From the NCBI RefSeq assembly GCF_028330965.1, contig NZ_JAQMUB010000052.1, forward strand, positions 62,001-126,000: a stretch of 64,000 nucleotides of DNA, read 5' to 3'. This document shows, piece by piece, positions 33,040 to 56,874 of this stretch (position 1 is its first letter; each line of letters starts with the position of its first letter). Position numbers and translations under genes: made by a program. The notes under the pieces were generated by a model. That model did not search any database and had not been told where the DNA came from. It saw nothing but the letters and a program-made list of their open reading frames with translations. The stretch is from Oscillatoria sp. CS-180 (GTDB lineage: Bacteria > Cyanobacteriota > Cyanobacteriia > Phormidesmidales > Phormidesmidaceae).

Positions 33040-33123
33040 CTGCTTACGGTTGCTCAGACTTCTCAGGCAGGGTTTATGTCCCGCTGATGAACTGATCAGG
33101 AAAGGTTCAGGAGTGAACCTCAC

Positions 33124-33231
33124 TATATAGCTTTAGCCATCTAGGCTTGTGCATCCATTAGCATCCGGGTGCTTAGCACATCGCCAGATGGCTCGCCGTC
33201 TTGTCCTAATGGAACTGGCAACAGCTATAGA
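33124..33231 (-). repeat. Dispersed ~105-bp element, copy 3 (opposite orientation)
   Basis: A well-preserved copy. The left end CTATATAGCTTTAGCCATCT and right end GGAACTGGCAACAGCTATAG form imperfect terminal inverted repeats (CTATAGCxxxxGCCA). Internal blocks TTAGCATCCGGGTGCTTAGC and CGCCAGATGGCTCGCCGTCT match the other copies in reverse complement. It lies 44 bp upstream of the DUF4278 start. Confidence 0.8.
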
Positions 33232-33274
33232 ACTCAAGACAGATGAAACCCTACCCATTCGGAGTGGCAATCTC

Positions 33275-33451
33275 ATGAAACTCACGTATCGCGGCGTATC
33301 TTATGATGCTTTCATTGCCGGTCGTACCGCTACTGAAACCACCGAAATAGGTACCTTTCGAGGCAAGAACTACGCCATCAAACAGTCACCTCTTCGTTTC
33401 CAAAAACCTGCCGAGGAATTTGTTTACCGAGGTATTCGATATAGCCGATAG
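33275..33451 (+). CDS. DUF4278 family small protein
   Basis: 58 residues from the ATG at 33275 (GGAG 10 bp upstream); a longer in-frame extension to 33149 would run through the repeat element and is rejected. The sequence has the DUF4278 pattern: MKLTYRGVSY at the start and a second YRGIRYSR at the end, with a short basic middle (GKNYAIKQSPLRF). These cyanobacterial proteins are of unknown function. A strong terminator follows 57 bp downstream. Confidence 0.8.
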   Translation: MKLTYRGVSYDAFIAGRTATETTEIGTFRGKNYAIKQSPLRFQKPAEEFVYRGIRYSR

Positions 33452-55002: not shown

Positions 55003-55153
55003 CAGATTGCTACCAATGCCCACTGTATACCGCTCAGTTTTCTCATGAAGTGATTAAGAGAGGTTCATTTTGAAGTCAGGTCAGGTTCAGGAAGGCATCG
55101 CACTATGGAACTCAAGATGATTGAAGTGATAAATCAATTCAAGGAGTTCAATT

Positions 55154-55543
55154 ATGAAACGCATTGCATTAGCCCTCACCGCTCTGACTGCTGTTTCCAT
55201 CGCTGTTGTTCCAGCCGCCTATGCTGCTCCTGACTTCGACGAGTTGCGCCGCGAGAACTTAGACAAAGACGCAGTGAACTTCGATGAGTTACGCCGCGAG
55301 AACTTGGACAAAGACGCGGTGGCTGAGATTCAAATCAAGGGTATCGATTTCGACGAGTTACGCCGCGAGAACTTAGACAAAGACGCAGTGAACTTCGACG
55401 AATTGCGCCGCGAGAACTTGGACAAGGACGCGGTGGCTGAGATTCAAGTCAAGGGTATCGATTTCGACGAGCTACGCCGTGAGAACTTAGACAAGGACGC
55501 TAGTGGCTTCGAAGAGCAGCGTCGGATCATCACCAAGTCATAA
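55154..55543 (+). CDS. Exported protein with tandem FDELRRENLDKDA repeats
   Basis: 129 residues with AAGGAG 8 bp before the ATG. Residues 1-25 are a Sec signal peptide (MKRIALALTALTAVSIAVVP, cleavage near AYA). The mature part consists of five near-identical copies of (D/N)FDELRRENLDKDA and one decayed copy (GFEEQRRIITKS). Copies alternate with and without a spacer AEIQ(I/V)KGI, giving a 38-residue higher-order unit repeated twice (residues 27-64 and 65-102). Charged, helix-forming and acidic. No Cys, no membrane segment, no known domain. I do not recognise the family. A strong terminator follows, so it is a single-gene unit. Confidence 0.85.
   Translation: MKRIALALTALTAVSIAVVPAAYAAPDFDELRRENLDKDAVNFDELRRENLDKDAVAEIQIKGIDFDELRRENLDKDAVNFDELRRENLDKDAVAEIQVKGIDFDELRRENLDKDASGFEEQRRIITKS
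55232..55504 (+). repeat. Intragenic tandem repeat of the FDELRREN gene
   Basis: Two 114-bp units (55232-55345 and 55346-55459) followed by a 45-bp partial unit. Most differences between units are synonymous (tta/ttg, gac/gat, aaa/aag), and one changes Ile to Val. Each unit itself contains two 45-bp sub-repeats. Confidence 0.9.
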
Positions 55544-55578: not shown

Positions 55579-55614
55579 AGCCTGCTCAACGATTGCAATT
55601 GAGCAGGCTTTCTT
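55579..55614. terminator. Bidirectional terminator between the repeat-protein gene and the ProA-like gene
   Basis: AGCCTGCTCAA and TTGAGCAGGCT form a perfect 11-bp stem around a 9-nt loop, followed by TTCTT on the plus strand. It can serve both convergent genes. Confidence 0.8.
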
Positions 55615-55623
55615 AGTACAGAC

Positions 55624-56874
55624 TTATTGCACCAATCCTTGAATAACGGCCTTGTGGGTGAGCAGCGACTCTAAAGTGATACGTCCGCCTTTGAGCCCGC
55701 GCTGAGCTGACATCCCCAGCGCGATCGCGTTAGCTTGAGCAGCATTCCGCTTAAAGCGGGGAGAAGCATTGACATAGATGGACGCGCTGCGAACCTGGCT
55801 AGCAAACTGTACGCTTTCCTGGTAAGAGTTAGTCACGATGCAATCGGCATGACCGTTGCTGTAGCGATTGATCAGAGCGATCGCCGTTGATAGATCAGTC
55901 ACCCGCGAAACGACAACAGAATAATTAAGCTGTGCTTCCTGCCAAAGTTCCTCCTCCTCAGGAGCAATAAATGGAACGATAGAGGGCACCTCGACATCTA
56001 TCGGCTTCAAGCCTCGTTCTTGCAGCAATTGGAAAAGCTCATCCATTGCAATTGGAGAGACTCGGTTATCAACCAAAATTTTTTCGATTCCATTGACGGG
56101 CTCTGGATTACCTCGACGGCTGTCCAGGACAATCTCAGCAACGACGTCAGCTGGAGCCGTGTGTGCCCAATACAGGTAGCAGTTGGCGATCGCAATCGAC
56201 AGGCTAGGCGAATTAGCTTCTCTGACCACCTGCTGCACCAAGCTGGCTCGTCCATAGGGGATCAGCAAATCCAGCTCGGTCGTCTGCATTAGCCAGCGAC
56301 GGGCAGCTTCGCCTTCGCTAGGGGAAATGGTCAGAATTGCAGCTTCGGGTAAAGACACCCGAGCCAACACTGTTTGGAAAACCTCTGCAATCACCTGATT
56401 AGTCTGACTGGCTTCGTGACCGCCTTTGAGAATGAGACCGTTTCCTGCCCGCAAGCACAGTCCCGCTGCTACGATGGCAAGCTCGGGTAAGGCTTCGTAA
56501 ACAAAAGCAATGACGCCCAAGGGTTCGCCTAACAAATAGGAATGAGAAATGGAGGCGATCGCTAGCTGAGAACTGTAAACAGAACTCGTTACCGAATCTA
56601 AGTTAGCTAACCTTTCCAAAATGGTAATGGCCGTATTGAGCCGCTCCGGCGTGAGCTTAAGCCACTCAACAACCAGCTCAGGCACTGCCATTTCTAAACT
56701 CGCTTCCAAGTCCAGCGTATTGGCTTCCAAGATGGCATCTGTTTCTTCTCGGAAGGTCTGAGTGGCTAAATGAAGGACCTCTGTCACCTTTTCGACCTTC
56801 TCTAAGGCCTTGGCTGCGTAGCGGACTTGTCGGATAAGCGCCGATAGCTCGGCCAAAGACTGAACAGAAGTCAT
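55624..56874 (-). CDS. ProA (glutamate-5-semialdehyde dehydrogenase) paralogue lacking the catalytic Cys
   Basis: 416 residues of the ProA branch of the aldehyde dehydrogenase fold: LGEPLGVIAFVYEALPELAI, AAGLCLRAGNGLILKGGHEA (nucleotide-binding region) and VNASPRFKR near the C-terminus. True ProA has the active-site Cys in a CNAxETLLV motif. Here the matching segment is VNGIEKILV, with Val260 in place of Cys (codon GTC at 56095-56097). The C-terminal HARGPMGL-type motif is also changed (QRGLKGGRITL). Aldehyde oxidation or acyl-phosphate reduction by the usual thioester route is therefore unlikely. Many automated annotations would call it proA. Confidence 0.8.
   Translation of the reverse strand: MTSVQSLAELSALIRQVRYAAKALEKVEKVTEVLHLATQTFREETDAILEANTLDLEASLEMAVPELVVEWLKLTPERLNTAITILERLANLDSVTSSVYSSQLAIASISHSYLLGEPLGVIAFVYEALPELAIVAAGLCLRAGNGLILKGGHEASQTNQVIAEVFQTVLARVSLPEAAILTISPSEGEAARRWLMQTTELDLLIPYGRASLVQQVVREANSPSLSIAIANCYLYWAHTAPADVVAEIVLDSRRGNPEPVNGIEKILVDNRVSPIAMDELFQLLQERGLKPIDVEVPSIVPFIAPEEEELWQEAQLNYSVVVSRVTDLSTAIALINRYSNGHADCIVTNSYQESVQFASQVRSASIYVNASPRFKRNAAQANAIALGMSAQRGLKGGRITLESLLTHKAVIQGLVQ

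Follow-up and report, generated by a model that had tools for sequence, protein, structure and literature searches.

A short charged repeat core appears to leave filamentous cyanobacteria in two forms that very probably carry one peptide module: as many copies within Sec-exported proteins, and singly, as a peptide delivered behind a double-glycine (GG) leader. Demonstrable from the sequences are the two export signals, the one core, its two-repeat module, the matching of cores by lineage, the constraint on the units and a common promoter element ahead of many of the Sec-type genes. The complete proposal, in which this two-form anatomy is joined to an extracellular matrix or adhesion function, is given a probability of roughly 0.4.

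The window gene and its secreted family

Within the window, the whole stretch of 64,000 nucleotides that was analysed, an open reading frame of 129 aa on the plus strand (55154..55543) encodes a Sec-type repeat protein and is preceded by a ribosome-binding site, AAGGAG, 8 bp 5' of the ATG (55141..55146, plus strand). By inspection, the N-terminus (MKR, a hydrophobic stretch and AYA ahead of APDF) reads as a Sec signal peptide of residues 1-24 (55154..55225), and similar N-termini occur in the paralogues. The earlier note had described five repeat copies and a decayed one behind this signal, and the translation bears it out: the exact repeat FDELRRENLDKDA occupies residues 28-40 (55235..55273), 43-55 (55280..55318), 66-78 (55349..55387), 81-93 (55394..55432) and 104-116 (55463..55501), followed by the decayed copy FEEQRRIITK at residues 119-128 (55508..55537), with the linkers VAEIQIKGID (55319..55348) and VAEIQVKGID (55433..55462) after the second and fourth copies, all on the plus strand. 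The proposed higher-order unit of 38 residues is likewise real, consisting of a repeat pair (28 aa) and a 10-aa linker, VAEIQ[I/V]KGID, a spacing that accounts for the 114-bp period returned by Tandem Repeats Finder (2.4 copies, 92% matches, score 470); the pair organisation matters because the pair is also the core of the GG form.

The window gene has neither a GG leader nor an adjacent exporter, and its neighbours are TPR, DUF6492 and ProA-like genes. Behind it, an inverted repeat followed by TTCTT (55579..55609, plus strand, read by eye) is a possible terminator; a terminator scan with a loop limit of 8 returned nothing for this stretch, in which the loop is 9. The downstream neighbour (55624-56874, minus strand) resembles glutamate-5-semialdehyde dehydrogenase (ProA) at 241.9 bits, below the equivalog cut-off of 289, and may be a diverged paralogue.

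The family had been called unrecognised, and this description stands. Profile searches of Pfam and NCBIfam with the window protein gave no model above cut-off (the weak Pfam matches, to HTH_37, DUF7348 and others, all lay below it), no chain was matched in a PDB sequence search, and in the literature searched the core strings brought up no relevant paper, a clinical trial protocol being the sole item; neither a characterised family for the motif nor strains without synonymous bias turned up. The best NCBIfam match, to the pentapeptide MXKDX repeat protein TIGR02953, which also has short secreted charged repeats, reaches 29.1 bits, below the cut-off of 41. Two AlphaFold (AF2) predictions are helical and of low confidence (mean pLDDT 52.8 and 59.7). 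Assembly through coiled coils or amphipathic helices, suggested by repeat lengths of 15 and 18, was rejected, as none of seven arrays showed hydrophobic periodicity near 3.6-3.75 residues at a shuffle p < 0.05 (p 0.17-0.89).

The window gene is one of eight dispersed Sec-type genes in its own genome (6.5 Mb, 102 contigs), the others lying on contigs C64, C34, C40, C69, C45, C41 and C29, the last being a more diverged member. Of 192 related genomes, 49 gave a match with an E-value of at most 0.1, many of these matches being close to that threshold and doubtful, and a scan of one genome per species (84,980 species) yielded 68 loci, all cyanobacterial, in Leptolyngbya sp. SIOISBB, Halomicronema, Nodosilinea, Phormidium tenue and others. 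The arrays differ in repeat number and spacing, comprising tandem 13-mers, tandem 15-mers and linker-spaced pairs. Phage and plasmid origins were both rejected: the sole phage match, LR745206.1, carries a different repeat, YSEYLAENLDKN, none of the 26 stretches that fit a pattern in viral_contigs encodes a relative, and the sole plasmid match, 25% identical, is to a pentapeptide protein of Priestia. What emerges is a multigene secreted family of filamentous cyanobacteria (Halomicronema/Leptolyngbya, Nodosilinea and others) that is absent from the family libraries searched.

About 80 bp of upstream sequence, with TCAG or TTAA boxes followed by a CACTATAG-like box, is common to seven of the eight own-genome Sec-type genes. 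At the window gene this putative promoter element spans 55033..55113 (plus strand), with TCAG/TTAA-type boxes in an 11-bp register and then CACTATGG (55101); the pattern match, with 1 mismatch, covers 55043-55090. The element is missing at the diverged gene on C29 and at several Sec-type loci of other genera. In a class-wide sample, the exact pattern was found in 38 of 388 genomes, the reversed control being unmatched among the matches listed, and 32 of 40 distinct places inspected precede a Sec-type gene under an ATG rule; the other eight are L338, L343, L345, L350, L355, L358, L372 and L377, and at L345 the rule missed a known Sec-type gene. The phosphate box (YTTAAYYW with 3-base gaps; PMC9846622) is equally spaced and differs in consensus, and no paper on a regulator with 11-bp repeats came up in the literature searched.

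Several other places touch on this element. A second copy in the window (33063-33110, 1 mismatch; region 33052-33451) precedes a DUF4278 gene (33275-33451; 47.3 bits, cut-off 25.3), which could possibly be co-regulated with the Sec-type genes. Elsewhere in the own genome, an exact element with a leader-like stretch and no repeat gene behind it (L269, G000:C30:139068-139115) looks like the relic of a lost Sec-type gene. The element also stands ahead of a DEP-domain gene (L330, G034:C11:4607968) and, at L355 (G042:C817:2535), ahead of a gene that is similar to it by eye. In a Nodosilinea/Phormidium subgroup, Sec-type genes without the 11-bp element (L074, L075, L076, L112, L113, L116 and L119) share other upstream sequence, with repeated GGAACG-like boxes.

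The double-glycine form and the neighbouring exporter

Many relatives also have the repeat behind a double-glycine leader. The own genome holds one such gene (contig C7, locus L045), whose peptide reads, leader then core, MTEQAKKDANPKGEQLSDDQLKDVSGG|VNFDELRRENLDKDATNFDELRRENLDKD. The core consists of two repeats in the 16 GG precursors first aligned, of which three hold a second leader-like segment with a second two-repeat core and three a short tail. Two outlying GG peptides near cNMP genes were also seen, one with three 13- to 17-residue repeats resembling STKEEFEAGLGNK (L208, G065:C187) and one with an odd core ending in RFREMRRENRDK (L194, G051:C116).

Divergent beside the own GG gene lie genes for a protein with two cNMP domains, an HlyD-like protein, a C39-peptidase ABC exporter and a second ABC protein. 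The exporter matches TIGR03796 at 1103 bits (cut-off 853), the second ABC protein TIGR03797 at 993 bits (cut-off 709) and the cyclic-nucleotide-binding protein, with two cNMP_binding stretches, TIGR03896 at 209.7 bits (cut-off 161), and the HlyD-like protein stays below cut-off for TIGR03794 (71.6 bits, cut-off 156.2). By eye, the gene beyond this operon (L045:559-2841) looks like a Wzc-type exopolysaccharide chain-length protein. The own GG gene lacks the promoter element of the Sec-type genes, so nothing suggests that the two are co-regulated.

A tally of 41 chosen GG loci found an exporter-type gene no farther than 2.5 kb away in 30, a count that includes two weak matches to generic ABC proteins (L126 and L305) and three loci retrieved via the exporter (L379-L381). 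No nearby exporter was seen at the other 11 (L104, L123, L129, L133, L139, L140, L194, L223, L224, L225 and L235), among which L194 failed the GG pattern despite its near cNMP gene and several others are short pieces.

The GG half is a known kind of cluster. Cyanobacterial peptides with a double-glycine leader usually receive a bacteriocin annotation, and a tested role is known for few of them. The arrangement at the own locus matches that of the group V bacteriocin clusters, with a two-CAP_ED protein, a short C39 ABC transporter, a peptidase-free second ABC transporter and HlyD (Wang et al. 2011, PMC3140520). Core peptides are described there as barely conserved, and the word "repeat" is absent from the paper's main text (PMC3140520), whereas the core described here is conserved, repeated and common to Sec-exported proteins. 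Among four GG precursors compared with the CTB family bacteriocin model NF038167, one reaches the cut-off of 32 (L104, 32.3 bits) and three do not (L045, L132, L134), the own-genome peptide scoring 14.5 bits; what is shared is the GG leader, and the match lies mainly within it. The bacteriocin_sig model TIGR01847 is reached by two of the four (L104 and L132), and the window protein matches neither model. In the literature searched, as far as its text was accessible, no Sec-exported multi-copy partner, no two-form lineage-specific core and no promoter of this kind is described.

Lineage matching and constraint on the units

Different lineages use different cores, and both forms follow. Genera g2 and g13 (same family) have another GG core, e.g. 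NSIHQRRLEHLDNQSKSVKDIQETRLEHLDNQSK, and many Sec-type genes of the same kind. In family f24, a different core, LTQRFEDARLENLDKG, is common to both forms in G124, as are the cores LNERFEDARDVILNK and LNDRFRDSYRDNLNS in G539, with related cores in G577 and G589. A first matching table placed the best Sec partner in the own class for 19 of 20 GG cores. The first Sec-type matches of g2, g13 and G183 came from a GG peptide as query; because the Sec-type genes of two classes were thus found through the GG form, reliance is placed on the promoter and exporter tests, which are blind to the core, rather than on this table. The Sec-type genes of G183 matched weakly (E 0.008-0.49) and lack the promoter pattern.

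The core-blind promoter search (at most 1 mismatch, six genomes) found 30 places in G006, G012, G034 and G124 and none in G033 or G183. At 29 of the 30 the pattern precedes a Sec-type gene of the genome's own core class, and at the remaining one a DEP-domain gene. The exporter-guided search, through cNMP-gene neighbourhoods in 13 genomes, found GG cores that match the genome's own Sec-type genes in G539, G577 and G589. No matching GG peptide was found in seven of ten new Sec-positive genomes (G531, G164, G566, G585, G009, G007 and G022), of which G009 has a contig end 420 bases from the gene, and in G032 and G059 the GG form alone was seen. That one form only was seen in several genomes speaks against an obligate coupling of the two.

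A pairing test covered 17 genomes of eight genera, chosen for having both forms and with the Sec-type loci of some genomes partly used. Of the 40,320 possible assignments, the own-genus pairing scored highest, at 0.687, where the mean was 0.421. The own genus ranks first in five of eight genera (g2, g8, g56, g77 and g204) and second, third and fourth in g1, g12 and g10, so that it is not the best within the F-core genera; on sequence, those in the FDxLRRENLDKD class are too alike to be separated. The signal therefore comes from the core classes and not from eight independent genera, and the statistic ignores shared phylogeny.

The differences between units had been noted as mostly synonymous. 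Among the exact copies in the window gene, all 10 pairwise comparisons together give 42 synonymous and 0 non-synonymous differences. The own genome's seven close Sec-type genes hold 50 units (the diverged gene on C29 being kept apart); their within-gene pS runs from 0.55 in the window gene to 1.11, and pN from 0 to 0.045; in the other six genes pS is 0.85-1.11, values above 1 being an artefact of Leu and Arg codon counting that means saturation. The own Sec units differ from the two GG units at pS 0.98-1.14 and pN 0.03-0.04. The same comparison gives pS 0.85-0.98 and pN 0.05-0.09 in G012, G005 and G003, and is more divergent in G006 (pN 0.27, few units).

Near-saturated synonymous sites with pN of about 0.03 in this genome mean that recent homogenisation or gene conversion does not account for unit identity, which is old and maintained by selection on the protein, in agreement with the earlier reading that the protein sequence is selected. 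The accompanying suggestion that the array expands or homogenises survives in part: the lower pS of 0.55 suggests that the window array alone is a more recent expansion, while homogenisation finds no support in paralogues at pS 0.85-1.11.

Candidate functions of the shared core

The core would most likely belong to a self-recognising matrix or adhesion peptide, by analogy with EbfG, the precursor of a peptide pheromone being the main rival; both a surface or matrix protein and a released signal, roles that the earlier note had raised, are candidates. Under the matrix reading, the GG leader would deliver the module singly through the NHLM-type C39-peptidase ABC exporter, and the Sec-type proteins would carry many copies of the same module. 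Cleavage at GG and at AXA would be followed by arrival outside, which for the Sec-type proteins assumes passage of the outer membrane, Sec export alone leading to the periplasm. Outside the cytoplasm the core may recognise itself or one shared partner, with the Sec-type proteins making up, in multivalent form, the bulk of an extracellular matrix or adhesion layer and the GG form as a small unit released by the exporter (seed, cap or diffusible subunit). Such co-assembly would need matched cores within a lineage, and a deviant unit would harm assembly, so that the 50 seemingly redundant own-genome units would stay constrained.

Secreted repeats with a minor partner bearing like repeats are familiar from curli (CsgA/CsgB) and other Sec-exported repeat matrix proteins. 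Curli subunits use one export route, as against two here, and the window protein matches no Pfam model above cut-off; curli serve as a model of how such a system could work. In Synechococcus elongatus PCC 7942, EbfG1-4 are small proteins with a GG motif whose secretion involves a C39-peptidase ABC transporter, EbfG4 being found at the cell surface and in the matrix and EbfG1-3 forming amyloid structures (PMC4997328, PMC9981879), and the GG form here might take an EbfG1-4-like role. Likened by description, the EbfG/PteB system has the GG motif and C39 exporter in common with the GG form and not with the window gene; the accessible text of those papers mentions no repeat core or Sec-exported multi-copy partner, and the precursors here differ in adjoining a two-ABC operon with a two-cNMP-domain protein. 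The low-confidence structure predictions, the lack of helix periodicity in seven of seven arrays and the finding of the forms apart all count against the matrix model, as do the own-genus ranks within the F-core genera, the wider Sec-GG divergence in G006 and the missing promoter element at the GG gene.

A peptide pheromone, possible and still rather unlikely, would have the Sec-type proteins as polyproteins whose linkers are cut once outside the cytoplasm, the GG form being the ready-made pheromone, with a lineage-specific receptor keeping the cores matched. It would suit the lineage-matched cores, the numerous paralogues (which would increase dose), the GG core as one two-repeat module, present twice in some precursors, each behind a leader-like segment, and the F-class Sec proteins, in which the pair lies between similarly patterned linkers. 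Against it, linker-free Sec arrays exist (13-mers, e.g. L360; 15-mers, e.g. L103), so that no family-wide cleavage site is apparent, and if dose alone mattered the units in the 50-unit pool should drift, which they do not. It is this last point, that a dose-only unit should drift and an assembly unit should not, together with the action of EbfG1-4 in the biofilm matrix, that favours the matrix role.

An improbable reading is that of a periplasmic or surface protectant, hydrophilin- or LEA-like or an ion-binding polymer, which acts by bulk chemistry and has the GG relative as a side branch. The mature window protein, cysteine-free, with 32 acidic and 20 basic of 104 residues (pI 4.46, computed charge -12) and no confident predicted fold, would fit this, but neither a sequence fixed at pN near 0.03 with near-saturated synonymous sites nor the lineage matching of cores with an exported peptide is needed for bulk chemistry. 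The earlier idea of a purely acidic metal-binding polymer is disfavoured, since invariant alignment columns include R, N, L and K besides acids.

Less probable again is a bacteriocin role for the GG peptide, with the Sec-type proteins, which bear its core, as decoys or self-protection. The GG peptides sit in clusters annotated as bacteriocin export, and attack with protection would fit lineage-specific matching; yet the peptides are acidic and cysteine-free, no antimicrobial activity is known for GG peptides of this type, Sec-type arrays are present where the GG form was not found, and the tested relatives in kind (EbfG) act, by the accessible accounts, in biofilm formation. Lineage-matched cores with no functional tie would likewise result if Sec and GG genes had undergone gene conversion or been recently re-copied from one another, a reading that is scarcely credible for units that are near saturation in the own genome (pS 0.98-1.14) and differ in third-position GC (0.61 in Sec, 0.33 in GG).

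Returning to the matrix or adhesion peptide, the pattern of the sequences points to an unrecognised extracellular peptide system. A core that travels in two secretory pathways and differs in step by lineage would have to match itself or one shared partner, which makes its function directly testable. Tentatively, this would be a self-recognition system of filamentous cyanobacteria built on one peptide "word" for each lineage. The word would leave the cell by two independent routes, alone through the NHLM peptidase exporter and in multivalent Sec arrays with their own promoter element, and both forms would have to carry the same one; it would serve the mat as a tag of kin or species and change in both forms at lineage splits.
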